The notes under the pieces are model-generated. The model was given only the letters and a program-made list of their open reading frames with translations. It had not been told where the DNA came from and did no database searches. DNA of 64,000 nt from assembly GCA_017432885.1 (NCBI GenBank), contig JAFRIE010000033.1, positions 124,001-188,000 of the forward strand, read 5' to 3'. The stretch comes from Erysipelotrichaceae bacterium. Lineage in GTDB: Bacteria > Bacillota_I > Bacilli_A > Erysipelotrichales > Erysipelotrichaceae. The translations under genes and the position numbers were made by a program. Positions 17,516 to 34,162 of the stretch are shown here, one piece after another; within the stretch, counting starts at the first letter, position 1; every line of letters starts with the position of its first letter.

Positions 17516-18304
17516 TTACCAGTCTGAATCCCAGTCGGATCCGCCGGAATCCCAGGAATCCCAGTCGTCATCGTCGTCCCAGCCGGAATCATAGTCGTCG
17601 TAGTCATAGTCATCATCGTCGTAGTCGCTGCTGCTGTAACTGCTGCTGCCGGAGTAGTAGTGTGAATCGTAGAAGTCCGTGTAGCTGTCGTTGTAGTAGT
17701 AGTCGTCGTAATAGGTATAGTCGTCGTAATAGTCGTCGTAGAACGTATCGTACGGACCGTAGTAGTACCAGTCGTCGTTGTCGTAGTAGTAGACGTCATG
17801 ACCCTGGGTGTAGTAGGTTCCGGAAGGCGTGACGTAGTAGCCGTCATTCTTATGCAGGCGGCGCTGGTAGGATACGACGCCAAAGATCAGACCGGTCGTG
17901 ACCAGGAACGATCCAAGTATCCCGATCAGGGCTACCTTCAGTGTGCTGTGTTTTCGGCCGCGGCTGTCGGTATAGTAGGACCTTGTCCTCTCCGGCTGTA
18001 TGAGCTTTCTGGCGAAGAGCGGACGCTTTCTCACTTCTTCCAGGAACTTCTGGTAGTATTCGCTGACCGCGATCTTTTCGTTCGGTCCCTTGTAACGTAA
18101 AGCCCTGGTTCCATCGGCTTTCATCTTGTATACGACATAGTCGCCGAAATCATCCTGGTAGATGACAAAAGCCTTGGGATCCGTATAGTCGTCCCCGATG
18201 AAGAATCGCGTCTTTTCGGAATCGATATGGAACTCCTCAAAAATATTCTTCAGTTCTTCATAGCTTTCTACCCGGTCGGGCAGATATTTCTTCTCATTTT
18301 CCAT
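17516..18304 (-). CDS. Membrane protein with Asp/Tyr/Trp-rich tail (paralogue 1)
   Basis: 262 residues from the ATG at 18304 (MENEKKYLP). An N-terminal domain of about 110 residues, rich in IGDDYTDPKAFVIYQDDFG-type strands, precedes a membrane helix (about residues 122-145), a 'YYVTP.G.YY.QG.DVYYY' linker and a tail made almost entirely of Asp, Tyr, Ser, Gly and Trp, ending SGGSDWDSDW. A closely similar paralogue lies 0.7 kb away on the same strand. I do not recognise the family. The start has no ribosome binding site but a TATAAT exactly six bases upstream, suggesting a leaderless message. An in-frame ATG nine codons upstream is the alternative. Confidence 0.75.
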   Translation of the reverse strand: MENEKKYLPDRVESYEELKNIFEEFHIDSEKTRFFIGDDYTDPKAFVIYQDDFGDYVVYKMKADGTRALRYKGPNEKIAVSEYYQKFLEEVRKRPLFARKLIQPERTRSYYTDSRGRKHSTLKVALIGILGSFLVTTGLIFGVVSYQRRLHKNDGYYVTPSGTYYTQGHDVYYYDNDDWYYYGPYDTFYDDYYDDYTYYDDYYYNDSYTDFYDSHYYSGSSSYSSSDYDDDDYDYDDYDSGWDDDDDWDSWDSGGSDWDSDW

Positions 18305-18310
18305 AATTCC

Positions 18311-18316
18311 ATTATA
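18311..18316 (-). promoter_or_regulatory. -10 box placed for a leaderless transcript (paralogue 1)
   Basis: On the minus strand GGTCTTATAAT ends six bases before the ATG, so transcription would start at or within a base or two of the start codon. The same GGTCTTATAAT with the same six-base gap precedes paralogue 2. The -35 match is weak (GTGAAA at 17 bases). Confidence 0.6.
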
Positions 18317-18349
18317 AGACCCTATTTTCATATTTTCACATCATTTCTC

Positions 18350-18989: not shown

Positions 18990-19913
18990 TTACCAGTCCG
19001 AATCCCAGTCGGATCCGCCGGAATCCCAGGAGTCCCAGGAATCGGAGTCCGAATCCCAGCCGGAGTCGTAGTCGCTGTCGGAATCCCAGCCGGAACTCGT
19101 CCAGTCGTCGTAGTAGTCCGAGTAGGTGAAGTCGTCGTAGTCTTCGTTGTAGTAGTAATCGTCGTAGTAGGTATAATCGTCGTAGCTGCTGTGGAAATGG
19201 TCGTAGGTGCCGTAGTAGTACCAGTCGTCGTTGTTGTAGTAGTAGACATCGTTTCCCTGGGCGTAGTAAGCGCCGTACGGTGTGACGTAGTAGCCGTCAT
19301 GTTTATGGATATAACGTTTGTATACCATCGAACCGGAACCGAAGAGCAGCACCAGAACCAGGGCGACGATGCTAAAAGCTTTCGGCGGGAATACGGTGCT
19401 TCTTCCGCTCTTGTCGGCGATCCAGCTCCAGAGGAAAATACCCGGATTTACTAGCAGGAACAGGATGACGGCTGCCCAGATCGGGAACAGTCCGAACATG
19501 GATAAAATAAGCAGACCGATCGCCCCAAACAGCATTCCGAGGAACCACTTGGTGTCGGGATCCATCTTTGTTTTCCTTCTCTTCCCTGTTCTTATCGTAG
19601 AAGGTCTTAAAAGCTTCCTGGCAAAAGCCGGACGCTTTCTTACTTCCTCCAGGAACTTCTGATAGTATTCACTGACCGCGTGTCTTTCATCTTTGCCCTT
19701 GTAACGCAAAGCTCTGCTTCCATCGGCTTTCATCTTGTACACGACAAAATCCCCGAAGTCGTCCTGATAGATAACAAAAGCCTTGGGATCCGTATAGTCG
19801 TCCCCGATATAGAATCTGGTCTTCTCCGAATCGATCTTGAATTCCTCAAAGACCCTTCTCAACGCTTCATAAGTCTCCACCTTTTCAGGCAGATATTTCT
19901 TCTCGTTTTCCAT
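18990..19913 (-). CDS. Membrane protein with Asp/Ser/Trp-rich tail (paralogue 2)
   Basis: 307 residues from the ATG at 19913 (MENEKKYLPEK). The N-terminal about 110 residues are nearly the same as in paralogue 1 (IDSEKTRFYIGDDYTDPKAF and onward). It has more membrane segments (three helices between about 120 and 205), the same 'HDGYYVTP.G.YY.QG.DVYYY' linker and a longer tail with repeated 'GWDSDSD' units ending in the identical SGGSDWDSDW. The function is unknown. A TATAAT sits exactly six bases before the ATG with no ribosome binding site, as in paralogue 1. The tail-coding DNA is repetitive and might vary in length between strains. Confidence 0.75.
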   Translation of the reverse strand: MENEKKYLPEKVETYEALRRVFEEFKIDSEKTRFYIGDDYTDPKAFVIYQDDFGDFVVYKMKADGSRALRYKGKDERHAVSEYYQKFLEEVRKRPAFARKLLRPSTIRTGKRRKTKMDPDTKWFLGMLFGAIGLLILSMFGLFPIWAAVILFLLVNPGIFLWSWIADKSGRSTVFPPKAFSIVALVLVLLFGSGSMVYKRYIHKHDGYYVTPYGAYYAQGNDVYYYNNDDWYYYGTYDHFHSSYDDYTYYDDYYYNEDYDDFTYSDYYDDWTSSGWDSDSDYDSGWDSDSDSWDSWDSGGSDWDSDW

Positions 19914-19919
19914 GACTTT

Positions 19920-19925
19920 ATTATA
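19920..19925 (-). promoter_or_regulatory. -10 box placed for a leaderless transcript (paralogue 2)
   Basis: Minus-strand GGTCTTATAAT followed by AAAGTC and then the ATG. The hexamer-to-start distance matches that of paralogue 1, while the six intervening bases differ. A TTGAAA lies 15 bases upstream, a short spacer. Confidence 0.6.
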
Positions 19926-20015
19926 AGACCTGCCGGACGATTTCAACACCCCCTGTTTCCCATGACAAAAGAATAAAAGCGCGATAAGATTAAAATAAAT
20001 ACAGGAGACAGGAAG

Positions 20016-20927: not shown

Positions 20928-22028
20928 ATGAATCAGACCGTCAAGGAAGAAAGAGACAGGATATCGAAGATATCCGGTATTACAGGAATCGTAATCAACG
21001 TATTCCTGTGTACGATGAAACTGATCATCGGAAAGAAGGTTAACTCCATTTCGATTCTTTCGGACGGTTTTAATAATCTCAGTGACGTATTTAATGCCCT
21101 AATGGTATTCGTGGGTTACCGTCTTACGGGCAAGCCTGCGGATCGGGAACATCCCTATGGTCACGGACGTTTCGAATACATGATGTCACAGTTCATCGCC
21201 ATCATGGTGATGTATGTGGGGATCTCTTTGTTAAGGAGCTGCGTGGAGAGACTGATCCGTCCCGAGACTGTTCTGATGGACAGATATGCGGTGATCGTAC
21301 TTGGCGTATCATTGTTTGTGAAACTGGGACTGGCGTTCTGGTACGACAGGATGTACCGAAAGAGCGAGCTAACACCGCTGCAGGCACAGAAAGCGGATTC
21401 CCTGTCGGATGTGGCAGGAACAGGAGTGATTCTTGCGGGTTATCTCATGGGATCGGTAATAAGTCTTCCGGTAGACTCCATCATCGGTATCGTCGTATCC
21501 GTCATCATCATTCTGGGCGGTTCCAGGATCTTCCTTAGAATGACATCCATTCTGCTGGGACAGCCGGCGAATGAAGAACTGTACAGAAGCATCGAAGAGA
21601 TCCTGAAACAGGACAAGGAGATTAGAGGCTATCATGATCTTAGGCTGCACAGTTACGGTTCAGGGAATGTGTACGGAAGCTGTGACGTAGAAGTCAACGG
21701 GGATGACAGTCTGTTTGAGATCCACGACTTTCTGGATGTGATAGAGAAAAGGATCTTCGAATACACGGGTGTGCAGATGACTCTGCATCCCGATCCGATC
21801 GGAACAAGCAGGAAGATCAAGGAATACGGCAGGATCATCAGTGATGCGTTGAAGAAATATGACGAGAGGATCTCCTACCACGATCTGCAGTACAACGGGA
21901 TGAGTAAGAGTTATTCTCTGGATGTGGTGATCCCTTATGATCTGAAGGTAAATGAAGAGGAACTGTGTAAAGAGATCAGAAAGGTATTTGAAGAAGACAG
22001 TGTAGAAATAAAGGTGGATAGAGAATAA
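20928..22028 (+). CDS. Cation diffusion facilitator (CDF) transporter
   Basis: 366 residues with six membrane helices in the first two-thirds and a cytoplasmic C-terminal domain. Signature elements are SDGFNNLSDVFNA in helix 2 with the metal-binding Asp, HPYGHGRFEYM in the following loop and KADSLSDVAG in helix 5. CDF proteins export Zn, Mn, Fe, Co or Cd in exchange for protons; the N/D...D/D site (N-x3-D in helix 2, D-x3-D in helix 5) may favour manganese or iron over zinc, but this is tentative. A terminator follows. Confidence 0.92.
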   Translation: MNQTVKEERDRISKISGITGIVINVFLCTMKLIIGKKVNSISILSDGFNNLSDVFNALMVFVGYRLTGKPADREHPYGHGRFEYMMSQFIAIMVMYVGISLLRSCVERLIRPETVLMDRYAVIVLGVSLFVKLGLAFWYDRMYRKSELTPLQAQKADSLSDVAGTGVILAGYLMGSVISLPVDSIIGIVVSVIIILGGSRIFLRMTSILLGQPANEELYRSIEEILKQDKEIRGYHDLRLHSYGSGNVYGSCDVEVNGDDSLFEIHDFLDVIEKRIFEYTGVQMTLHPDPIGTSRKIKEYGRIISDALKKYDERISYHDLQYNGMSKSYSLDVVIPYDLKVNEEELCKEIRKVFEEDSVEIKVDRE

Positions 22029-22068
22029 AAAGACGGGGTTGTGTCGATTATAAGACCTCGTCTTTTAG
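22028..22068 (+). terminator. Intrinsic terminator
   Basis: Twelve-pair stem AAAAGACGGGGT/ACCTCGTCTTTT (one G-T pair) with a 15-base loop. It ends the lipoprotein-CDF transcript. Confidence 0.75.
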
Positions 22069-22147
22069 CTTGACCGTTGTCGTGTTTTTTGCATGATCCT
22101 TAACATAGCATAAAGTAAAATAATAATGAATGGATGAAGGAGAAAGC

Positions 22148-22600
22148 ATGAATAAGAAACATTCCGATAAAGATGTGATTTATAAAGAAATAATTACCGG
22201 ATCTTATAATCCAAGACGTTACTCGATGAAGATCATAGACGGAGAAACTCCTTTGGTCGTGTTGACGAGCTGTTACTTGCTTGATTTCGAATCGGAGAAG
22301 ACCGCCAGTTATAATCTGAACAAAGAGGGCATTGATAAGATCAAAGAACGGATCGAAAATGCAAGATATCTTTTCAATGATGAACCTCTTGAAGAATGTG
22401 ACTATTTTGTCTTAGATGGCTGCAAGGAAGAGTATTTCTTCCGATCCGGAAATAAGAAAGCCAAAATTAAAAAAGACAATTTCAGTCTTATATACTCCGA
22501 AATGTCGAAGGATACAAAAGCAGGAGAGATCATGAATATCATTGATTCAATCCATGAAATACTGAAGGAATATGGAATTGCTCTGGATGAACCGGCATAG
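22148..22600 (+). CDS. Hypothetical protein
   Basis: 150 residues from ATG 22148, chosen for its AAGGAG at eight bases. It is soluble, acidic and mixed alpha/beta, without membrane segments or motifs I recognise; it contains the strand-like segments ITGSYNPRRYSMKIIDGETP and PLEECDYFVLDGCKEEYFF. It is monocistronic: a terminator precedes it and the next gene points the other way. It is the first gene of the region with a visibly higher A+T content. Confidence 0.65.
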   Translation: MNKKHSDKDVIYKEIITGSYNPRRYSMKIIDGETPLVVLTSCYLLDFESEKTASYNLNKEGIDKIKERIENARYLFNDEPLEECDYFVLDGCKEEYFFRSGNKKAKIKKDNFSLIYSEMSKDTKAGEIMNIIDSIHEILKEYGIALDEPA

Positions 22601-22629
22601 ATTTCGATTGTCTGCTACATCTGTTCTGA

Positions 22630-23637
22630 TTAAATATCTCTCCTATCAATAAAAGTCTTATCAAACAGTCCAAGTTTCACAAGACCTTCGTTGATCTTCT
22701 CAAGATCATAGGTCTTGTTTTTTATACAGATCAGGATAAACTGGTCCGACTTATCCGACGGATTAAAAGCCATGGAATTGCGTGAAAGCAGGTCCATAGT
22801 CTGCTGTACATTGAGCTTTAAAGCCAGACACAGAGCGATAGCCGCGTCTTTTCGCGGACTGTAGTTACCGCACATGATCCGGGAATACGTCCTTCTAGGA
22901 AGCCATGCGCGGTCGTAAATCGCAGATGGTTTTTCATCAAGAAGATCAACATAGTAATAGAGTTTATCCGCAAAGGTTGAGACATCATTCGGTAGTTCAT
23001 ATCGATAAGAAGTCCCGACCCTTTTATGAACCTTGATCAGTTTCGATTTCTTCGATCTCTCCATGACCGTTTCATATCTTGAACCGTATTCTTCCTGAAG
23101 TTTCTCTGTCGCCTTCTGCCTGCTGATGAATTCTTCTACGTTCTCGGCGATCTTGCCGGAAAGCATAAAAGAATCTTCATCAAAGATACAGATGATCACT
23201 TTCACATTTCCGTGCTTCATCAAAAATTCGTTGATCTCGCTGGTAGCGATATTCAGAGCCTCGTCTTTTGGAAAGCCATATACTCCCGTAGAGATCAAAG
23301 GAAAGGCGATCGATCTGCACTGTTCCCTTAATGCCAAGGCCAGAGAGATACGGTAACAGTTTCTTAGATTCTCCAGTTCGTTGTGTTGTCCGTCTATCCA
23401 TCTTGGTCCTACCGTATGAATAATGACTCTGCATAGATCAAACCCCGATGTCACCCTGGCATCGCCGACATCGATCGCTCCGATCTTTTTCCTCTCGGCA
23501 AGAAGCCGTTCCGCTCCGGCCGCCTTGTATATAGCCGAATCAACGCCTCCTCCGATTATCGGTAAAGGGTTGGCTGAATTGACGATTGCATCAACCTTCA
23601 GTGTTGTAATATCCGCTCTAACATATTTAATCGCCAT
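22630..23637 (-). CDS. Macrodomain protein with C-terminal HTH-like domain
   Basis: 335 residues from the ATG at 23637, which has GAGGTGATTTT in front; upstream in-frame codons lack a site. Residues 1-170 are a macrodomain: ADI at 8-10, N20-x2-N23, the GGGVD loop 29-33 and the STGVYGFP loop 116-123, all known to bind ADP-ribose. After a linker, residues about 236-295 (AWLPRRTYSRIMCGNYSPRKD, ALCLALKLNVQQTMDLL) resemble a Cro/XRE-like helix-turn-helix that I have seen attached to other domains in Firmicutes. Divergent from the NAD-salvage operon, with a 19-bp palindrome in its own promoter region, it is a good candidate for an ADP-ribose-responsive repressor; catalytic de-ADP-ribosylation is the alternative. 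Confidence 0.82.
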   Translation of the reverse strand: MAIKYVRADITTLKVDAIVNSANPLPIIGGGVDSAIYKAAGAERLLAERKKIGAIDVGDARVTSGFDLCRVIIHTVGPRWIDGQHNELENLRNCYRISLALALREQCRSIAFPLISTGVYGFPKDEALNIATSEINEFLMKHGNVKVIICIFDEDSFMLSGKIAENVEEFISRQKATEKLQEEYGSRYETVMERSKKSKLIKVHKRVGTSYRYELPNDVSTFADKLYYYVDLLDEKPSAIYDRAWLPRRTYSRIMCGNYSPRKDAAIALCLALKLNVQQTMDLLSRNSMAFNPSDKSDQFILICIKNKTYDLEKINEGLVKLGLFDKTFIDRRDI

Positions 23638-23665
23638 AAAATCACCTCTTTTATAATTATACAAA

Positions 23666-23684
23666 TGTCTCATTAAATGAGACA
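23666..23684. promoter_or_regulatory. 19-bp perfect palindrome, candidate operator
   Basis: TGTCTCATTAAATGAGACA has nine-base arms around a single central base. It lies between the divergent macrodomain-HTH gene and the small-ORF/ADP-ribosylglycohydrolase/NMNAT/PnuC operon. It covers the -35 region of the leftward promoter, whose -10 TATAAT is read on the minus strand just before the ribosome binding site. It has no T-run, so it is not a terminator. Confidence 0.75.
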
Positions 23685-23735
23685 AGAATAATATTTTTCG
23701 CCTGTATTATTTAGTCAGTAAAGGAGGAAAATAGT

Positions 23736-23927
23736 ATGAAACAGATTAAAGAAGTTGAAGAAATGACAAAGGTGGATCTGATTAAGGTAATTGAAACAAT
23801 AGGAGAACAAATCAAGGAATTGACAAGTGATTTTGATCCTGCAGGGAAATTAATCTTGGCTCAAACGGTCATTAGTGGAGTTTTGGCTTTCGCCTATGCA
23901 TTAAGTCGCAGTAAAGGAGGAGAATAA
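23736..23927 (+). CDS. Small protein, first gene of NAD-salvage operon
   Basis: 63 residues with AAAGGAGGAAAATAGT before the ATG. An amphipathic helical N-terminal half (EEMTKVDLIKVIETIGEQIKEL) precedes a hydrophobic segment (LILAQTVISGVLAFAYAL) that could cross or lie on the membrane. No family is recognised. The gene is one base upstream of the ADP-ribosylglycohydrolase gene, whose ribosome binding site is inside its 3' end, so it is translated from the same message. The good ribosome binding site and coupling argue that it is real. Confidence 0.7.
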   Translation: MKQIKEVEEMTKVDLIKVIETIGEQIKELTSDFDPAGKLILAQTVISGVLAFAYALSRSKGGE

Positions 23928-23928
23928 C

Positions 23929-24732
23929 ATGTTTGGAGCTACATTAGGAGACATTATCGGGAGTAGATTTGAATTTGACAGAGGCAATCATACGAAGGAG
24001 TTCCAGCTGTTTACAAAGAGATGCAGTTTTACCGATGATACGGTCATGACAGTTGCGGTAGCGAAAACCCTTCTGGAAACAGACAGAAACGCTTCAGAAG
24101 AAGAATTAAAAAAAGCGCTGATCGTAAACATGCAGAAACTGGGAAGACGTTATCCCTATGCCGGATATGGAAGCAGATTCATTCACTGGGTTTTTGCCAA
24201 GGAACCAAGGCCTTATAATTCCTGGGGAAACGGTTCGGCCATGAGAGTATCAGCAGCAGGATGGCTTTATGATTCCCTGGAGAGAACAAGGGAGGTTGCC
24301 AGATGGACCGCGGAAGTGTCTCATAATCATCCGGAAGGAATCAAGGGAGCGGAATGTGCGGCAGCGGTCATCTATCTGGCAAGGACAGGAAGTACGAAAG
24401 AAGAAATCAGAGAATATGTCATAAAAGAGTTTGATTATGATCTTCATGAAAGTCTTGAAGAACTGAGAAAAAGACACCGTCATGATGAATCGTGCATGGA
24501 TTCTCTTCCAAAAGCCCTGGTATCTTTCCTGGAAGGAAATTCATATGAAGACGTTATCAGGAATGCCGTGTCTCTGGGCGGAGATACCGACACTTTGGGG
24601 GCGATCGCAGGAGGTATGGCGGAAGGGTATTATGAGATTCCGGAAGAGATGATCAAACAGGGAAAGGAATACCTTACAGAGGAGCTGAAAGAGATCCTCT
24701 GCATGATCGATACAGGGAGGACTGATGAATAA
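23929..24732 (+). CDS. ADP-ribosylglycohydrolase (DraG family)
   Basis: 267-residue all-helical DraG/ARH fold. Metal-binding residues are visible in FTDDT (T35-D36-D37-T38) and GGDTDT (217-222), and the GNGSAMRV substrate loop is at 101-108. Such enzymes remove ADP-ribose from arginine, from other groups or from small molecules using two Mg or Mn ions. AAAGGAGGAGAATAAC precedes the ATG. The NMNAT-like gene overlaps its last eight bases. Its placement with NMN uptake and adenylylation points to recycling of ADP-ribose or to a NAD-related signal; it could also reverse the action of the transferase at 15.4 kb. Confidence 0.9.
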   Translation: MFGATLGDIIGSRFEFDRGNHTKEFQLFTKRCSFTDDTVMTVAVAKTLLETDRNASEEELKKALIVNMQKLGRRYPYAGYGSRFIHWVFAKEPRPYNSWGNGSAMRVSAAGWLYDSLERTREVARWTAEVSHNHPEGIKGAECAAAVIYLARTGSTKEEIREYVIKEFDYDLHESLEELRKRHRHDESCMDSLPKALVSFLEGNSYEDVIRNAVSLGGDTDTLGAIAGGMAEGYYEIPEEMIKQGKEYLTEELKEILCMIDTGRTDE

Positions 24733-25231
24733 GAAATACAAGATAGGAATGTACGGAGGCAAGTTTCTGCCTTTCCACAAGGGACACAGATACTGCGTAG
24801 AATTCGCTGCTGATGAATGCGAAACGGTATATGTGATTCTGTTTTACGGCTGTGCCGATGAGGAAAAAATACTAAAGGAACATCCCGAATGGTGGCTGTC
24901 TCTGGAAGAGAGAAAGAAACAGCTGATGAAAATATACGATGACACAAAAGACAGGGCCAGGATCATTCCGGCACTAATCGATGTATCAGAACTGCGTACG
25001 CCAGAAGGAGAAGAGGACTGGGATGCGGAAACGCCTCTGGTCAGAGACCTGTTGGGACCGCATCTTAATGCGGTCTACAGCAGTGAGCCTTCTTATGAAG
25101 ATTATTTCAGAAGAGCTTATCCGGAAGCCGATCATAGGCTGGTGGATGTTCCCAGGATTCATTTTCCGATCAGCAGCACCAGGATCAGGGAGATGAAAGA
25201 TAAAGAAGAAAGAGAGGAATGGATGATATGA
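24725..25231 (+). CDS. NadR-like NMN adenylyltransferase
   Basis: 168 residues of a nucleotidyltransferase fold: GGKFLPFHKGH with the H18-x2-H21 ATP-binding motif, and ISSTRIR (149-155), the second ATP-phosphate motif. The length equals one catalytic domain, resembling the adenylyltransferase part of NadR without its HTH or kinase domains. It would convert NMN (or a ribosylated nicotinamide after kinase action) to NAD. GGAGG precedes the ATG inside the upstream gene, so translation is coupled. It is followed by pnuC, its natural partner; another cytidylyl- or adenylyltransferase activity cannot be excluded. Confidence 0.82.
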   Translation: MNKKYKIGMYGGKFLPFHKGHRYCVEFAADECETVYVILFYGCADEEKILKEHPEWWLSLEERKKQLMKIYDDTKDRARIIPALIDVSELRTPEGEEDWDAETPLVRDLLGPHLNAVYSSEPSYEDYFRRAYPEADHRLVDVPRIHFPISSTRIREMKDKEEREEWMI

Positions 25232-25950
25232 GAATGGAGAATCTAAGGAAGAGTTTTAAGGAACTGACATGGTACGAATATCTGATGGGGATTGTGATGA
25301 TTGTCATTGCTGCAAAGGCAATGATTGAGGGCTTTGCGACAGGTTCTTCCAATGGGAATCCGGCATGGCTGACCGTCATTAATTTCATCAGTGCCGTCTG
25401 TGGAGTGATATGCATCTTCTTTACGGCTAAAGCCAATATCTCGAACTTTATCTTCGCTTCAGTCAATACGATCGTCTATGCCATATATCTTGTCTATTGG
25501 CATATCTGGGGCACGGCCGCTTTGGAAATCTTCTTCTACATTCCGACCAATTTCATTTCCTGGTATCACTGGGCAAAACACAGGGATGAGATGATCAGTC
25601 AGAAGACGAAAGCAAAGAGACTGACGGTGTTGCAGAATGTAGTGTGCACAATGATTGTTGTCTGTTCCGCCGTCTTGTATCACATGATCCTGGTAAGGTT
25701 TGGCGGAGAGGTAGCATGGCTGGATGCATTCACTTTGAGCATTGGGATTATTGCTACGATACTGGAGATGTTCAGGTATGCGGAGCAGTATGTGTGGTGG
25801 CTGATTACGGATATAGTAGCGGTAGCGATGTATATTGTTCACTTTGATCCGGTCTATCTGACAAAGAAGAGTATCTATCTGATCATGGCAGTGATTGGGC
25901 TGTACAACTGGATCAAATTGAACAAAGAAAGAAACATAGAGAATGATTAA
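25228..25950 (+). CDS. pnuC: Nicotinamide nucleoside transporter PnuC
   Basis: 240 residues from ATG 25228, which overlaps the preceding stop as ATGA and has GAGAGG at ten bases; the ATG at 25219 is too close to that site. It has seven or so membrane helices with family hallmarks: FYIPTNFISWYHWAKHR in the middle, WWLITDIVAVAMYI near the end and a late IYLIMAVIGLYNW segment. PnuC carries nicotinamide riboside (or related vitamers) into the cell by facilitated diffusion driven by later phosphorylation. It is the last gene of the four-gene operon. Confidence 0.92.
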   Translation: MRMENLRKSFKELTWYEYLMGIVMIVIAAKAMIEGFATGSSNGNPAWLTVINFISAVCGVICIFFTAKANISNFIFASVNTIVYAIYLVYWHIWGTAALEIFFYIPTNFISWYHWAKHRDEMISQKTKAKRLTVLQNVVCTMIVVCSAVLYHMILVRFGGEVAWLDAFTLSIGIIATILEMFRYAEQYVWWLITDIVAVAMYIVHFDPVYLTKKSIYLIMAVIGLYNWIKLNKERNIEND

Positions 25951-26074
25951 GGAAAGAAAGCGGAATAATGAACTTAAAAAACGGCCATATTACTGGGAGA
26001 AGAATAGATGGATTGTTATAATTAAAGTATAAAAAGCACAGTCAAGAGACATTAATAATAACGAAGGTATTGAT

Positions 26075-27106
26075 ATGGCGAACGAACTTACAAAAAGAAA
26101 TGAAAATCAACCAGAGAATCAAAAGCTTGATCTTTATGATGCGCAGTTTGACTCTTTATCATTAATGAAGATCAACGAGCAGAAGCAACAAGAAGCAGAC
26201 AAAATCATTTCAAGAATAACTGCAGCCCTTGTTGACAAGGATATTGCAAAAAAGGTCAAGAAGAAAGGCAGTCCGGAATATGAATATGTAGTACAGATGG
26301 ACGACAAGACAAAAGAAGCTCTTGAGAAAGGTCTTATCAAGTTTGATGTAGCGAAAGATGGAAGGGTGTTTGCGCAGTTGAGAGAAAATGGAAAATACAG
26401 CAAGAAACTCTCAATCGATAAAGTAATGAAAGACGAGGGAATTAAACCTGAAGAATTAACTGGTGCTCTTCAGGTCAAAGCAATACAAAGTCAACTTGAA
26501 GAAATGGCTGCTACTCTTGAAAGCATCGAACAGACTGTAAGCGAGGTCAAACAAGGTCAGCAGGATGATAGGATTGGTCTTTTCTACAGCGGCATGAACA
26601 TGTATTTAGAAGGCAAAACTATCATGGATCCAGAATTAAGGAAATATGTCACATCCCAGGCTTTGCAATCAATAAGCAACGCCAGTGCACAGTTGATTCA
26701 ACAGATTCAGACCGATAGAAACTACCTGTTAAACGGAAATTATAAAAAGAAAAAAGGACAAAGCTATGATGAACTTCAGTCCAGGATGGAGAGCATTAAT
26801 AAAGCGTTTGAGATCATTTATCAATCGGCAATGTTAAAAGCCGGGATATATTATGATCAAAACGAATTACAGTCAATGATGATGGTCTTGAATGAATACA
26901 AGCGGTTTATTGAAAAGGTCATTATGCCAGTTGCACCAAAACTGATTGAATTTGATGAAAATGTCACTGTACTGAAGGACAGCGTTTGGGATAGGCGGGC
27001 AAATACGTTAATATGCGCTGAAACGATCAATCAGCAGATAATGCATGCAGATCATTATTTGATTGAATACAAGGAGGAAGAAAAAGTATGTCAGACAAAA
27101 GAGTAA
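26075..27106 (+). CDS. Hypothetical helical protein
   Basis: 343 residues, mostly helical, with a probable coiled coil around residues 140-180 (VKAIQSQLEEMAATLESIEQ) and no signal peptide. The middle part, QMDDKTKEALEKGLIKFDV..GRVFAQLRENGKYSKKL, looks like a small alpha/beta unit. I do not recognise the family. The last 19 bases overlap the start of the zinc-ribbon gene, so the two form one unit. Base composition is more A+T-rich than the housekeeping genes, and both sit next to a type I restriction system, which suggests a mobile or defence role without proving it. Confidence 0.65.
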   Translation: MANELTKRNENQPENQKLDLYDAQFDSLSLMKINEQKQQEADKIISRITAALVDKDIAKKVKKKGSPEYEYVVQMDDKTKEALEKGLIKFDVAKDGRVFAQLRENGKYSKKLSIDKVMKDEGIKPEELTGALQVKAIQSQLEEMAATLESIEQTVSEVKQGQQDDRIGLFYSGMNMYLEGKTIMDPELRKYVTSQALQSISNASAQLIQQIQTDRNYLLNGNYKKKKGQSYDELQSRMESINKAFEIIYQSAMLKAGIYYDQNELQSMMMVLNEYKRFIEKVIMPVAPKLIEFDENVTVLKDSVWDRRANTLICAETINQQIMHADHYLIEYKEEEKVCQTKE

Positions 27107-27414
27107 AAGGATGCCCAAACGAGAATTGTAAGGATTACAAGAAAATAAGATACAAAGCCGAAGATAGATTTTGCAAATCCTGTGGATCAGAATTGATTTT
27201 TGTTTGTAGCAAATGCTGGACCCCGCTTGCCGACGATGATCAGAAAAAGAAAATCTGTGCAAAATGCGAAGCAAAAAGGGAAGATCGAAAAGAAAACATC
27301 ATTAATACTGCAAAAAAGATAGGCGAGGGAACGGTAGCTGTTATCGCATTAGTTCCTACTGTTTTGAAAACTGTTCCAACATTGATAGAAAAAATTCCTA
27401 CCAAAAAGGAGTAG
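27088..27414 (+). CDS. Zinc-ribbon protein with hydrophobic C-terminal helix
   Basis: 108 residues. Four cysteine pairs (CPNENC, CKSC, CSKC, CAKC at about residues 9-60) form two zinc-ribbon modules in the first 60 residues, followed by a basic helix and a hydrophobic stretch (GTVAVIALVPTVLKTVPTLI) that may attach to a membrane. AAGGAGGAAGAAAAAGT precedes the ATG, inside the upstream gene. Cofunction with the 343-residue partner is likely; the actual role is unknown. Confidence 0.68.
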   Translation: MSDKRVKGCPNENCKDYKKIRYKAEDRFCKSCGSELIFVCSKCWTPLADDDQKKKICAKCEAKREDRKENIINTAKKIGEGTVAVIALVPTVLKTVPTLIEKIPTKKE

Positions 27415-27627
27415 ATTAAGTTTTTTTCAACTTTTATAAAAAAGCAGAGTTCATATTATCTCTCTTTTTATAATGCTATTACAAGAAAAATAATGTAGTT
27501 TTTTGCCTGGGGAAGAAATAGTATTCTATTATATGCCAAGTTGAATTAGTCGTATTTTTTGAACAATCCTTTGTTAAAATAATAATGATAAAATCTGAGA
27601 ATTATTTGATAATAATCGAGGCATAAT

Positions 27628-29199
27628 ATGGACAATACAAAAGAACTTCAAAGACAGGAACTACATAATGCAATCTGGAAAATAGCCAACGATTTACGTG
27701 GAGCGGTAGATGGATGGGACTTTAAACAGTATGTTCTTGGAACACTGTTTTACAGATATATCAGTGAGAACATTACCGCCTATATCAACAAAGGCGAACG
27801 GAAAGCCGGTAACACAGATTTTGATTATGCCAGGATGTCTGATGAAGAAGCAGAAGAAGCGAGAGAGGATCTTGTAGAAGAGAAAGGATTCTTTATTCTA
27901 CCTTCTGAATTATTCTGTAATGTCCGTACAAAAGCAAAGAACAACCCTAATCTGAATGAAACATTAGAGAAGACCTTTAATCACATTGAAGATTCTGCAA
28001 AAGGTACAGGGTCAGAAGATGATTTTAAAGGTCTTTTTGATGATTATGATGTCAACTCCAATAAGCTTGGTGGGACCGTTGAAGAAAGAAACAAGAGATT
28101 GCTTGCGCTTCTTAATGGCGTTGGCGATATGAACCTTGGAGACTTTCAGGATAACACCATAGACGCTTTTGGCGATGCCTATGAATTCCTTATGACCATG
28201 TATGCATCCAATGCCGGAAAATCTGGCGGAGAGTTCTTCACTCCGCAGGAAGTATCCAGACTATTAACGCTTCTAGCCTTAGGAGACAAGAAACAAGTAA
28301 ATAAAGTATATGACCCGGCGTGCGGTTCAGGATCACTGCTTTTGCAGGCAGCCAAGATACTTGGACCAGAAAACATCAAGATCGGTTTCTTTGGTCAGGA
28401 AGTCAATATCACTACATACAACCTCTGCAGGATCAACATGTTCCTGCATGATATCAACTACAACAATTTTGATATTGCATATGGTGATACACTTGTAAAT
28501 CCGTTACATTGGGATGATGAGCCTTTTGATGTCATCGTCTCCAATCCACCTTACAGCATCAAATGGGAAGGTGATGACAACGTTACGTTGATCAATGACG
28601 AAAGGTTCTCTCCTGCAGGTGTACTGGCTCCAAAATCAAAAGCAGACTTTGCTTTTATCATGCATTCCTTAAGCTGGCTGTCTTCAACGGGAACGGCAGC
28701 GATCGTATGCTTCCCTGGCATCTTCTACAGAGGCGGAGCAGAGAAGAAGATCAGACAGTATCTGGTTGATAACAATTTCATTGACTGCGTTATTCAGATG
28801 CCGGACAATCTGTTCTTTGGCACTTCTATTGCTACATGTATCATGGTTCTAAAGAAAAACAAAAAGGATAACAGCATTCTTTTCATTGATGCATCAAAGG
28901 AATGTGTCAAGGTAACCAATAGCAACAAGTTGTCAGAAAACAACATCCAGAACGTTTTTAAGATGTTTGCAGATCGTAAAGACATCCAGCATGTGACCAA
29001 GCTGACATCTTATGAAGAGGTTAAGGAGAACGACTATAACCTTTCTGTATCGACCTATGTTGAACAGGAAGATACAAGAGAAAAGATAGATATCAAGGTT
29101 CTTAACCAGCAGATCAAAGAGATCGTTGCAAGAGAAAACGAGCTCAGAGCGTCTATAGATAAAATCATTGCAGAAATAGAGGGAGATACTGATGAGTAA
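27628..29199 (+). CDS. hsdM: Type I restriction-modification methyltransferase subunit HsdM
   Basis: 523 residues. An N-terminal helical HsdM domain ([21 protein letters not shown]) precedes the gamma-class adenine methyltransferase with SAM motif I at 229-235 (DPACGSG) and the catalytic N306-P-P-Y motif IV. It methylates adenine in the sequence chosen by HsdS and is part of both the methylase and restriction complexes. The start overlaps nothing; a 210-base A+T-rich gap with promoter-like sequence lies upstream. It overlaps hsdS by eight bases. Confidence 0.95.
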
Positions 29200-30385
29200 G
29201 TTAGAAGAATTGATTCAACAGTATTGTCCTGATGGTGTAAAATACGTAAAACTGTTGGATGTGGCTGAGGTGTTATATGGTTTTCCTTGTGATGCTTCAC
29301 AGTTTAACACCAACGGAAATGGAAAACCGCTTGCAAGAATAAGAGATGTGCTAAATGGTTATTCGGGGACTTATACCACTGAGCCAGTGCCAGTAAAATA
29401 TGAACTGAGTAAAAATGATCTTTTAGTAGGTATGGATGGAAATTTCCATGTTGGGAATTGGAAACAAGATGGAGGAATATTGTGCCAACGTGTTTGTAAA
29501 ATATTCGCCAAAAATAATGAACAAGAAATCTTAAATGGTTTTTTGTCCCACTTAATGAAGCCGATAATGAAAAAAATAGAAGATAGTAAACAAAGCGGGA
29601 CAGTAAAACACTTACTTGACAAAGATATCCGAGGTATTGAAGTTCCGCTACCGGCTTTGCCGGTACAAAGAGAAATCGTCCGTATACTGGATGAGTTCTC
29701 TTTGTTATCAGCCGAGCTTGCAGCCGAGCTTGCAGCTCGTAAGCAACAATATGAATATTATAAAAACGAGCTATTGGAATTTCCTGAATGCGAAACAATC
29801 ACTTTATCCGAATTGTTTAACACAAGAAACGGATTCACGCCGTCTAAAGGTAATCCAGACTACTGGACTAACGGAACATTGCCATGGTTCAGAATGGAAG
29901 ATATAAGAGAGAACGGTCGAATACTATCTGATGCAATACAGCATATTACAATGGAGGCAGCTAAAAATAAACCGTTCCCAGCTAACTCAATTATTGTTTC
30001 TACATCTGCAACCATAGGGGAGCACGCTTTAATAACTACAGATTTTCTATCCAACCAGAGATTTACTTGTTTGACGATTAAAGACGAATATAAAAAACAA
30101 TTTGATATGAAGTTTTTGTTCTATTATTGCTTTAAGCTTGATGAGTATTGCTTGAATAATCTCAATCAAGGCAACTTTGCATCAGTTGATATGACACAAT
30201 TCGCTAAGTTCAAATTTCCTATTGTTCCAATTGACGAACAGAGGAAAGTTGTTTCTTTGCTTGAGAAGTTTGATTGCTTGGCCAATGATATCAACGAAGG
30301 TCTTCCTGCAGAAATCGAAGCAAGACAAAAACAGTATGAATACTATCGCGATAGATTATTGAGTTTTGAAAGAAAAGAGGCTTAA
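29192..30385 (+). CDS. hsdS: Type I restriction specificity subunit HsdS
   Basis: 397 residues with the usual duplicated layout: target recognition domain 1 (about 10-150), central conserved helix '[17 protein letters not shown]...[13 protein letters not shown]' (about 152-195), recognition domain 2 (about 200-340) and a distal conserved helix '[16 protein letters not shown]....[13 protein letters not shown]'. It reads a bipartite DNA sequence. The central helix contains a tandem 12-base duplication encoding AELAAELA, in the place where repeat number sets spacer length in the EcoR124I family. No second hsdS or recombinase is visible nearby, so shuffling is unlikely. Confidence 0.95.
29711..29734 (+). 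repeat. Two tandem 12-bp repeats in hsdS central region
   Basis: GCCGAGCTTGCA occurs twice in direct succession, followed by a partial third (GCTCG). It encodes AELA-AELA in the helix joining the two recognition domains. In EcoR124I and its relatives, two versus three copies of a comparable four-residue unit change the spacer of the recognition site by one base. Confidence 0.85.
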
Positions 30386-30388
30386 TTT

Positions 30389-31042
30389 ATGGTAAAAGGC
30401 GTTGTATATATCTTGACAAATCCCAGTTTTCCTGACTATGTCAAGATTGGGTATGCTGCTGATATCGAGAAAAGACTGAAACAACTGAATAAGAGTGAAA
30501 CAATCCCGTTTGCTTTCAGAGTTTATGCAGTCTATGAAGTCGATAAATCCCTGACCGACAAGGAACTGCATAAGCTTATTGACACACTCAACCCAGATCT
30601 AAGATCCATAGAAACGTTTGATGGTAGAGCTAGAGTAAAAGAATTCTATGCAATGTCTGCAGAAGATGCTTATGGACTGTTGGAGTGCATTGCGAGGATA
30701 AGTGGCACTGAAGACAGACTGAAAAGGATGAAACCGGAAGGTCACGAGATTCTGGATATGCAGATCGCCAAAGAAGTTCAGGAGAACGAGTTTCGCGGAA
30801 AATTCAGATTTACTGATATTGGCATTCCTGTCGGCAGTATTCTAAAACTGTTGGGGAAACCGGAGGTTGAAGTGAAAGTAGTTGATGATAGGCATGTCGA
30901 GTATCAGGGAAAGACGACATCCCTTTCTGCGCTTGCCAAAGAGCTCAATAATTTCAATTACCCGGTAAACGGGGCAAAGCACTTTACATACAACGGCAAA
31001 ACAGTATGGGAGATCAGGAGAACCCACTCCATTTTAGATTGA
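30389..31042 (+). CDS. T5orf172-type GIY-YIG protein with RAMA-like C-terminus
   Basis: 217 residues. The first about 90 residues match the T5orf172 subgroup of GIY-YIG nucleases (GVVYILTNPSFPDYVKIGYA, then a Glu-containing helix 'LTDKELHKLIDTL'). The last about 65 residues, 'IPVGSILKLLGKPEVEVKVVDDRHVEYQGKTTSLSALAKEL....GAKHFTYNGKTVWEIR' in pattern, resemble RAMA-like modules associated with modified-base recognition. It is inserted between hsdS and hsdR with three- and twelve-base gaps, so it belongs to the restriction operon. It could cut or recognise modified DNA; the exact role is not known. Confidence 0.78.
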   Translation: MVKGVVYILTNPSFPDYVKIGYAADIEKRLKQLNKSETIPFAFRVYAVYEVDKSLTDKELHKLIDTLNPDLRSIETFDGRARVKEFYAMSAEDAYGLLECIARISGTEDRLKRMKPEGHEILDMQIAKEVQENEFRGKFRFTDIGIPVGSILKLLGKPEVEVKVVDDRHVEYQGKTTSLSALAKELNNFNYPVNGAKHFTYNGKTVWEIRRTHSILD

Positions 31043-31054
31043 TAATTGCAAACC

Positions 31055-34000
31055 ATGGCCAATTATAACATCATTTCACAGAACCCTGAATCGACAGTGG
31101 TCACCGAATATACTCCAATCGCCAGAAAGTCTGACGCTTTTCAAAGTGAAGCGGCACTGGAAGCTGAATTTATCAGGATGCTCTGTGAACAGGGATATGA
31201 AAGATTAAACATTCATACTGAAGCAGAGTTAATAGACAACCTGCGTATACAGATCCAGAAACTCAATAAGTATGAGTTCACTGACACTGAATGGGATTAC
31301 TTCTTCAAGACCTTCCTGGCTAACGCCAACGAGGGAATCAAAGAGAAGACCAGAACCATTCAGGAAGACTATGTTAAGCCTACAAAACTTGATGATGGTT
31401 CTACAAAAAACATCAAACTGATTGATAAAGAAAACATCCATAATAACTCTCTTCAGGTACTTAATCAGTACGAAGCAGAAGGAAGCCGCAAGAACAGATA
31501 TGATGTCACTGTTCTGGTAAATGGCTTGCCTTTAGTACATATTGAACTAAAGAGGCGCGGTGTAGCGATCAGAGAAGCATTCAACCAGATCAACAGATAC
31601 CAGAGAGATTCCTTCTGGAGCGGATGCGGATTGTACCAGTACGTACAGATCTTTATCATATCCAACGGTACTCATACCAAGTATTATTCCAATACGACCA
31701 GGTATTCTCATACGGAAAACAAGAACGGAAAAAGCAAGTCGAAGACTTCCAATTCTTTCGAGTTCACGTCTTATTGGGCAGATGCCAAGAACAGAACCAT
31801 TCCGGATCTGGTAGACTTTACCAGAACCTTCATGACTAGGCATACACTGCTTAATATTTTGACCAAGTACTGTGTATTTACGGTTGATGATTTATTGCTT
31901 GTGATGCGTCCGTATCAGATCGTCGCAACCGAAAAGATTTTAAACAAGATACAGATCAGCACCAACTATAAAATCTTCTCTACCCCTGCTGCCGGAGGTT
32001 ACATCTGGCATACCACCGGATCAGGAAAGACATTGACTTCTTTCAAGACAGCCCAGCTTGCCACAAAGCTCGATTATATCGATAAAGTACTGTTTGTCGT
32101 AGATAGAAAAGATCTGGACTATCAGACGATGAAGGAATATGACAAGTTCAAGAAAGGCGCTGCGAATTCCAATAAATCTACAGCTATACTAAAGGCTCAG
32201 ATCGAAGATTCTGAAACAAGGATTATTATTACTACGATACAGAAACTGGATATCTACTGTAAACAGAACAAAGGCTCTGAAGCGTTTAACAAGCATATCG
32301 TTCTGATATTCGATGAATGTCACAGATCGCAGTTCGGTGAGTTCCATGCGAATATCACTTCTTCCTTCAAGAAGTATCATCTGTTCGGATTTACCGGTAC
32401 GCCGATCTTTGCCGAGAATGCCGGTTCTATTACGCTGACAAAAGGATTCGTCGATAAGAATGGAATCGTGTTAAAGACGACACCGCAGGTCTTTGGTGAA
32501 TGTCTGCACGACTATACGATCATCAATGCAATCAACGATGAAAACGTTCTTCCTTTTAAGGTTGACTATATTCAGACTATCAAGGAAAAAGAGATCAAGG
32601 ACAAGGATGTTTCCGACATCGATAGAGAAAGAGCATTGAAGGATCCACGAAGAGTCAGCGAGGTTGTTTCTTATATCCTGGAGCATTTCGATCAGAAGAC
32701 CAAGAGGAACGCGGACACCTATGTACATACGCTGATATCCAATGTAACGGATGTTGCGATCAGACAGGCTCTGGAAGAAAAGGAAAAGAAGAGAATCAGA
32801 GGATTCAACTCCATCTTTGCTACGGCTTCCATTGAGTTCGCAAAGCTGTATTATGCCGAATTCAAGAAACAGCTTAAGGTTTCTGAAAAGCCTTTGAAGA
32901 TCGCTTTGATCTATTCTTATGGAGCAAACGATGAAGTCGGTGATTTTGTTGAAGATGAAAACTCCGATGATACGAACGGATTGGATGTATCAGACAGAGA
33001 CTTTCTGGATAGCGCAATCAAGGATTACAACCTGATGTTCCATACGAACTACGATACATCATCCGATAGATTCCAGAACTACTACAAGGATGTATCGATG
33101 CGTATGAAGAATCAGGAGATCGATATCCTGATCGTTGTGAATATGTTCCTGACCGGGTTTGATGCGACAACGCTGAATACGTTGTGGGTGGATAAGAATC
33201 TGAGATATCACGGCCTGTTACAGGCTTTCTCCAGAACGAATCGTATTCTTAACAGTATTAAGACGTTTGGCAACATTGTATGCTTCAGGAACCTGGAAAA
33301 GGCCACAGATGAAGCTCTGGCTTTGTTCTCGGATAAAGAAGCCGGAGGCATTATCCTGTTAAAACCGTACAAGGATTACTTTGAAGGGTTTGATGAAAAC
33401 GGCAGGCACTTTGAAGGATATCTGGAGATCGTTGATAGGCTTCTAAAGGAGTTCCCGCTCAGCAAGTGGCAGGAATATGTTCTCGGTGAAAAAGCAGAAA
33501 AGACATTCATTCGTCTGATGGGTGTACTGTTGAAACTGAGAAATATTCTGACGGCTTTTGATGAGTTTGAAGATATTCTTACACCGATCACCCTGCAGGA
33601 TTACTTGAGCAAGTACAATGATCTGTACGACAAGTATCGCAGGAAGAGCGATGACGAAAAAGAAATCATCAACGACGATATTGTCTTTGAAGTGGAACTG
33701 GTAAAACAGATTGAAGTAAACATCGATTATATTTTGGCTTTGATTGCAAAGAAGAAAAAAGAGGGTGCTACCAACAAGCAGATCGTCGCATCTCTTAATT
33801 CTGCGATGAACTCATCCTTTGCGTTAAGGTCTAAAATAAAGCTGATTGAAAACTTCATTGAAACACTGGGTGGAGAAGATGTCAGGGCATCCTGGGAAAC
33901 TTATATTAAACAGAAAATTGTAGATGATCTGGAAGAGATCATTCAGAGCGAGAATCTGAACGCTGCTGAAACGTATCAGTTCACTCATGATAGTCTGGAG

Positions 34001-34162
34001 AACGGAAGATTTGACACATCCGGAACGGCAATGAATCAGATCCTTCCGCCGATGTCCCGATTTAATAAAAACAGAGCATCTGTCAAGGAAAGAGTCATTG
34101 AGAAACTAAGAGAATTCTTTGACAGGTACTGGGATCTGGGAATCAATGTTACTGATAGGTAA
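31055..34162 (+). CDS. hsdR: Type I restriction endonuclease subunit HsdR
   Basis: 1035 residues from ATG 31055 (MANYNIISQ); a TTG nine bases upstream is an unlikely start. The N-terminal nuclease has D150 and E164-x-K166 (HIELKRRG). The helicase motor has Walker A TTGSGKT at 320-326 and a DEAD-box variant D420-E-C-H, then a 'TGFDATTLNTLWVDKNLRYHGLLQAFSRTNRI' motif VI block and a helical C-terminus that contacts the methylase. It translocates DNA and cuts at a distance when the site is unmethylated. It is the last gene of a complete, intact M-S-(GIY-YIG)-R operon. Confidence 0.95.
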   Translation: MANYNIISQNPESTVVTEYTPIARKSDAFQSEAALEAEFIRMLCEQGYERLNIHTEAELIDNLRIQIQKLNKYEFTDTEWDYFFKTFLANANEGIKEKTRTIQEDYVKPTKLDDGSTKNIKLIDKENIHNNSLQVLNQYEAEGSRKNRYDVTVLVNGLPLVHIELKRRGVAIREAFNQINRYQRDSFWSGCGLYQYVQIFIISNGTHTKYYSNTTRYSHTENKNGKSKSKTSNSFEFTSYWADAKNRTIPDLVDFTRTFMTRHTLLNILTKYCVFTVDDLLLVMRPYQIVATEKILNKIQISTNYKIFSTPAAGGYIWHTTGSGKTLTSFKTAQLATKLDYIDKVLFVVDRKDLDYQTMKEYDKFKKGAANSNKSTAILKAQIEDSETRIIITTIQKLDIYCKQNKGSEAFNKHIVLIFDECHRSQFGEFHANITSSFKKYHLFGFTGTPIFAENAGSITLTKGFVDKNGIVLKTTPQVFGECLHDYTIINAINDENVLPFKVDYIQTIKEKEIKDKDVSDIDRERALKDPRRVSEVVSYILEHFDQKTKRNADTYVHTLISNVTDVAIRQALEEKEKKRIRGFNSIFATASIEFAKLYYAEFKKQLKVSEKPLKIALIYSYGANDEVGDFVEDENSDDTNGLDVSDRDFLDSAIKDYNLMFHTNYDTSSDRFQNYYKDVSMRMKNQEIDILIVVNMFLTGFDATTLNTLWVDKNLRYHGLLQAFSRTNRILNSIKTFGNIVCFRNLEKATDEALALFSDKEAGGIILLKPYKDYFEGFDENGRHFEGYLEIVDRLLKEFPLSKWQEYVLGEKAEKTFIRLMGVLLKLRNILTAFDEFEDILTPITLQDYLSKYNDLYDKYRRKSDDEKEIINDDIVFEVELVKQIEVNIDYILALIAKKKKEGATNKQIVASLNSAMNSSFALRSKIKLIENFIETLGGEDVRASWETYIKQKIVDDLEEIIQSENLNAAETYQFTHDSLENGRFDTSGTAMNQILPPMSRFNKNRASVKERVIEKLREFFDRYWDLGINVTDR

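Follow-up and report, generated by a model that had tools for sequence, protein, structure and literature searches.

A conserved palindrome between divergent genes suggests that a macrodomain–helix-turn-helix protein regulates an ADP-ribosylglycohydrolase operon in Erysipelotrichaceae

Why would a macrodomain, which belongs to the best-studied readers of ADP-ribose, be joined to a helix-turn-helix (HTH) tail in a protein encoded back to back with an ADP-ribosylglycohydrolase (DraG/ARG family)? The question is raised by a locus in a 64,000-nucleotide stretch of DNA (hereafter the window; contig JAFRIE010000033.1, positions 124,001 to 188,000, assembly GCA_017432885.1) from a gut Erysipelotrichaceae bacterium, whose genome (1.8 Mb in 58 contigs) is 73% complete and whose nearest named relatives are two Erysipelotrichaceae metagenome-assembled genomes, one of them from goat jejunum. 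We lean, with some reserve, toward a one-component regulator, in which a macrodomain sensor and a Cro/C1-type HTH domain would act through a 19-bp palindrome to repress the regulator's own gene and activate the DraG operon. The features on which this reading depends are as follows.

22630..23637, minus strand: macrodomain–HTH (macro-HTH) protein, 335 aa (open reading frame (ORF), Pfam Macro, tail model, relatives), with a MacroD-type macrodomain at about residues 1–165, a helical linker at 168–214 and a Cro/C1-type HTH tail at about 215–321
23656..23685, minus strand: predicted macro-HTH promoter, TTGTCT-18-TATAAT (10/12, the top promoter-like site of the region)
23666..23684, no strand: 19-bp palindromic putative operator, TGTCTCATTAAATGAGACA, present in seven divergent loci with compensatory changes
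23705..23710, plus strand: predicted −10 box TATTAT of the DraG operon, 20 nt past the operator, with a −35 match of at most 2/6
23929..24732, plus strand: DraG (PF03747 ADP_ribosyl_GH, E 4e-36), with the metal-site motifs TDD and GGDTD

A preliminary description of the window had placed here a macrodomain-HTH gene divergent from a small ORF and the genes for DraG, a nicotinamide mononucleotide (NMN) adenylyltransferase (NMNAT) and PnuC, an arrangement borne out by the ORF list, in which all five ORFs are present where expected, and by Pfam and NCBIfam; the macro-HTH gene likely starts at ATG 23637, rather than at the mechanically assigned TTG 23685. A tree built from 52 macro-HTH proteins, with loci sampled from the family and nearby orders, united in one clade (support 100/100) the seven loci at which the macro-HTH and DraG genes diverge. 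DraG is found near the macro-HTH gene at 22 of the 52 loci and lies on the opposite strand in all seven of the divergent clade, so that the core link of the module is that of macro-HTH with DraG, that is, with reversal of ADP-ribosylation.

The palindrome noticed earlier between the divergent genes proved to be real. All nine of its pairs are matched; of 1000 shuffled versions of the intergenic region, 4 reached this score, and GTCTC-N7-GAGAC is found once in the window, at this site. Palindromes of 19 bp stand at the same place in the six divergent relatives (TGTCTCATAAAAAGAGACA, TGTCTCTTCAAAAGAGACA, TGTCTCATCAAGTGAGACA, CGTCTCGTTATACGAGACC, TGTCGTTTAAATAGCGACA and TGTCGCTTATTTATCGACA), the pattern (T)GTC-N11-GAC(A) being common to 7/7 loci. 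Pairing over the seven palindromes amounts to 84% of cells, compared with 33–52% when the frame is slid by 1–3 columns; pairs 5/15 and 7/13 show compensatory changes, and the arms are 82% identical between loci as against 36% for the adjacent 20-nt spacer. Moreover, the exact TGTCTC-N7-GAGACA occurs at one site per genome in four genomes, and the extra exact matches to TGTCG-N9-CGACA in two further genomes are all inside ORFs. The change of the operator from TGTCT to TGTCG is accompanied by a change of the putative recognition helix from PRRT or PKQS to DRRL. With an operator conserved in this way, local regulation is likely and the idea of a macrodomain regulator is strengthened, whereas the circuit for salvage of nicotinamide adenine dinucleotide (NAD), also part of the preliminary interpretation, was weakened (see below); that interpretation is thus partly supported as a whole. 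Three other roles of the palindrome were rejected: a wider regulon, since one-mismatch sites outnumbered control patterns in just one of the five genomes searched (G018, with 20 sites versus 8 for the control) and the extra exact TGTCG-N9-CGACA matches fall in coding sequence; a family-wide operator, since no counterpart was found upstream of the co-directional macro-HTH relatives; and a terminator or known RNA, since there was no Rfam match and the position is upstream of both −10 boxes.

The sign of the regulation is suggested by promoter geometry. From the end of the palindrome to TANNAT, the predicted −10 box of the DraG operon, the distance is exactly 20 nt in 7/7 loci, and in none of them does a hexamer at spacings of 15–19 match TTGACA at more than 2 of 6 positions. 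Given this −10 box, the centre of the palindrome falls near −42 relative to the DraG operon; lambda cI activates PRM from about −42. Toward the macro-HTH gene, the palindrome overlies the −35 box and most of the spacer of the predicted promoter, at a distance from the −10 box that varies among loci. A spacing fixed toward DraG and variable toward the macro-HTH gene suggests activation of the DraG operon, as opposed to its repression, combined with steric autorepression. Presumably, a macro-HTH dimer binds the 19-bp palindrome, shuts off its own promoter by covering the −35 box and spacer and, positioned near −42, probably activates the DraG operon in a lambda cI-like manner, because the latter promoter has a −10 box but no −35 box. 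The likeness to lambda cI and P22 c2 thus comprises the HTH fold and the placement of the palindrome, which is centred near −42 of one promoter and overlies the divergent one; unlike these repressors, the macro-HTH protein has an N-terminal macrodomain in place of a C-terminal peptidase-like domain, a single operator and no part in a phage switch.

The C-terminal domain had been described as HTH-like, and a fold check agreed with this. Modelled alone with AlphaFold2 (32 sequences), the tail gave a predicted local distance difference test score of 92.6, with helices at 10–21, 25–31, 36–43, 51–60 and 65–73 and then two further ones. VIA-align comparisons with P22 c2, 434 Cro, SinR and DdrO yielded Z values of 7.3–7.9 over 62–68 residues (6.8–7.9 with the lambda repressor included, by Foldseek and VIA-align), and nearly all of the top structural rows were Cro/C1-type domains. 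Pfam gave no match to the tail of the window protein itself and a weak HTH_26 match in 11 of 32 relatives. As the model and alignments both display the five-helix DNA-binding fold of Cro/C1 (XRE) type, we take the tail to be a Cro/C1-type (XRE-like) HTH domain.

The N-terminal part matched Pfam Macro (E 4e-33), and no Nudix domain was found by Pfam in the protein. Residues 1–165 are 38–47% identical to MACROD2, YmdB and O. iheyensis MacroD (OiMacroD), which resemble the macro-HTH protein in fold and binding-loop residues and differ from it in lacking an HTH tail fused through a helical linker. The binding loop NSANP...GGGVD retains N23 and D33, spaced by ten residues like N30 and D40 of OiMacroD (an equivalence judged from spacing and context) and invariant in the divergent clade (eight aligned rows). 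A macrodomain with these catalytic-type Asn and Asp residues may also hydrolyse its ligand. A second macro-HTH gene in the same genome (L004, 12859–14624, minus strand), of a type linked to a vWA gene, has lost the binding-loop Asn, with CPTD instead of NSAN. Near the divergent module of G018, a gene (L036, 3047–4489, minus strand) fuses Nmad3 (nucleotide modification associated) to a macrodomain.

Outside the divergent clade the neighbourhood is different. Among the 45 non-divergent loci, a co-directional vWA gene is present within 3.5 kb in 39 and a co-directional DraG gene in 15, and no shared palindrome was seen upstream of the macro-HTH genes; vWA is absent from all seven divergent loci. 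Homologues extend to other families of the class, and a human-gut phage (PV036457; L106, 3299–4333, plus strand) carries a full homologue of macro-HTH, listed as a hypothetical protein. Viral carriage of the close clade was rejected, no relative being found among viral contigs; a scan of genome contigs returned only three loci, two of which are the records of L034 and L035.

Several of these facts weigh against the proposed regulator. Since 45 of the 52 macro-HTH genes have neither a divergent DraG gene nor the shared palindrome, many being located in co-directional operons, an HTH tail does not necessarily imply local control in every locus. DraG is nearby at fewer than half of the loci (22/52). 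The seven divergent loci share descent and hence provide few independent observations, the fixed 20-nt spacing could suit a repressor too, and VIA Z values of 7–8 are middling for small helical domains, with Foldseek E-values above 0.1. The operator, the geometry and the seven natural variants render the regulator idea directly testable.

As to what the regulator would sense, the effector in the macrodomain would most likely be ADP-ribose or a small ADP-ribose derivative, and DraG, as the output, would strip ADP-ribose from macromolecules. More tentatively, and with somewhat less than even confidence, we propose that the macrodomain senses the ligand in a cI-like factor of dual action, in which ADP-ribose arising from ADP-ribosylation turnover switches the promoter for its removal and, in some species, for NAD salvage. 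The closest known concept is that of the ADP-ribosylglycohydrolase (ARG) systems predicted in section 3.8 of Iyer et al. 2022 (PMC9503650), where Nudix-HTH or WYL-HTH regulators are combined with phosphatases and chaperones such as vWA in a proposed defence against viral ADP-ribosylation. The divergent module resembles the systems of that section in its DraG/ARG gene and in a one-component regulator that pairs an HTH domain with a putative ADP-ribose sensor, and the wider macro-HTH family alone resembles them in its vWA partner. It differs in the macro-HTH sensor itself, in place of Nudix or WYL, in the Cro/C1-like HTH domain, in the absence of phosphatase and vWA from the divergent clade and in the addition of NMNAT and PnuC in three species. 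If the ligand-switch reading is true, the macrodomain would join Nudix and WYL as a third class of sensor, and would possibly be a trigger enzyme destroying its own signal. In agreement with the earlier statement that no regulator of this architecture was known for NAD salvage, no paper naming a macrodomain-HTH regulator, or describing a macrodomain as the sensor of a bacterial transcription factor, was found in a search largely outside subscription journals and the supplements of PMC9503650.

A possible, though rather doubtful, alternative is counter-ADP-ribosylation immunity of the kind envisaged by Iyer et al. 2022, which would be off by default and switched on once host molecules are ADP-ribosylated by a phage or toxin; DraG would then remove the marks, and NMNAT and PnuC might refill NAD. 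The phage-borne homologue and the vWA partner in 39/45 related loci, as in the ARG-centred systems of section 3.8, speak for it. So do the type I restriction-modification genes next door, although a neighbouring restriction system is weak evidence, and the lack of any Pfam match to an ADP-ribosyltransferase or sirtuin in the neighbours scanned within the window (20928–27411), although this screen covered only some flanks and the other loci in part. The ARG-centred systems have no coupled transferase or sirtuin, a trait that the module may share, and the lack of a transferase among the neighbours scanned sets the module apart from DarTG and DraT-DraG pairs. On the other side, neither a phosphatase nor any other core part of the published systems occurs in the divergent clade, and PADLOC gave no match for the module genes, by which membership of a known defence family was rejected.

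It is less probable that macro-HTH acts mainly as an enzyme, a de-ADP-ribosylase whose tail serves only for autoregulation or for holding a partner, with transcription not under ligand control. Retention of the catalytic-type N23 and D33 would be expected of such an enzyme, as would the 45 loci with no divergent DraG gene and no shared operator found. In the divergent clade, however, regulation is indicated by an operator conserved in parallel with the recognition helix and by the constant geometry of the DraG promoter.

The preliminary description had instead assigned the output to salvage of NMN and nicotinamide riboside (NR), in a NrtR-like circuit built on a macrodomain. The remaining genes of the operon, which bear on this proposal, are as follows.

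23736..23927, plus strand: small ORF, 63 aa (from the ORF list; not found in relatives)
24725..25231, plus strand: NadR-type NMNAT domain, 168 aa (CTP_transf_like), overlapping DraG by 8 nt
25219..25950, plus strand: PnuC-family transporter (NMN_transporter, 6e-34; TIGR01528 above cut-off), overlapping NMNAT by 13 nt

These overlaps are the pattern of a translationally coupled operon, and in three species NMNAT and PnuC would have joined the DraG operon to help restore NAD. The NMNAT covers positions 2–144 of 325 in TIGR01526, with the ribosylnicotinamide-kinase half absent; unlike NadR, in which HTH, NMNAT and kinase are parts of one protein, it is thus the NMNAT part alone. In place of the 63-aa protein, the relatives have other small ORFs or none, and kinship of this protein with a 95-aa protein preceding a radical S-adenosylmethionine (radical-SAM) gene elsewhere was rejected, as BLAST gave no alignment.

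That macro-HTH is a functional analogue of NrtR, gauging NAD turnover by ADP-ribose and controlling NMN/NR salvage as its main output, appears unlikely. The overlapping NMNAT and PnuC genes in three species are in its favour, as are a convergent 5′-nucleotidase of the UshA/NadN family beside the macro-HTH gene in two of these three and the ADP-ribose sensing known for NrtR, as cited in PMC9503650. Both regulators combine a sensor of ADP-ribose-binding fold with an HTH domain near NAD genes and a palindromic operator. However, NrtR is a Nudix-winged-HTH repressor, whereas the macro-HTH protein has no Nudix domain, a different HTH, a conserved target in DraG and a geometry suggestive of activation, so that the NrtR comparison stands only as an analogy. 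NMNAT and PnuC accompany macro-HTH at only 3 of the 52 loci, those of the three closest species, which form one clade nested within the seven-locus divergent clade; the other four divergent loci have the same operator without them, and DraG is found in 7/7. Of the neighbourhood predicted earlier, the divergent macro-HTH/DraG pair was therefore conserved in this clade and the NMNAT/PnuC part was not. Moreover, the genus has a further, divergent PnuC-family gene and NadD (in four of five genomes searched, with none in the window's own incomplete genome), and the operon has no NR-kinase domain.

In another genus (g31), close relatives of the NMNAT (69–73%) follow a radical-SAM gene and adjoin PnuC in four of five loci (L166, 6066–8482; also L165, L167 and L169). 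Three of these four also have a preceding gene of 95 or 96 aa, and the fifth locus (L168) had the NMNAT match only. The product made or taken up through that operon may not be plain NAD. Given the restriction of NMNAT-PnuC to 3/7 divergent loci and its radical-SAM partner elsewhere, NAD salvage therefore seems to be a recent add-on, plausibly a lineage-specific extension and not the defining output; as a conserved core output it was rejected. The locus would illustrate the uptake of NAD-salvage genes by a regulated unit for ADP-ribosylation reversal.

Finally, that the palindrome is the site of an unrelated host regulator is improbable: most macro-HTH relatives lack it, as this would predict, yet its occurrence coincides with a single macro-HTH clade, its sequence changes together with the HTH, and in the genomes searched the exact site is found outside genes only at this intergenic region.

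The surroundings of the module have features of their own. The type I restriction-modification genes (27628, 29192 and 31046, within 26075–34162) are preceded by genes for an unknown 343-aa protein and a zinc-ribbon protein, and a T5orf172/PDC-S57 gene (30389) separates the genes for the S and R subunits. On the other flank, two paralogues without a Pfam match (17516–18331 and 18990–19949, both on the minus strand), which have a common N-terminal part (MENEKKYLP...) and long Asp/Tyr/Ser-rich tails, lie on either side of a MarR-family regulator gene. A 156-aa protein of unknown family adjoins macro-HTH and DraG both in the window (22130–22600, plus strand) and in L050 (9359–9850, plus strand); the two proteins are from different genera and share 23% identity (E 3e-7).

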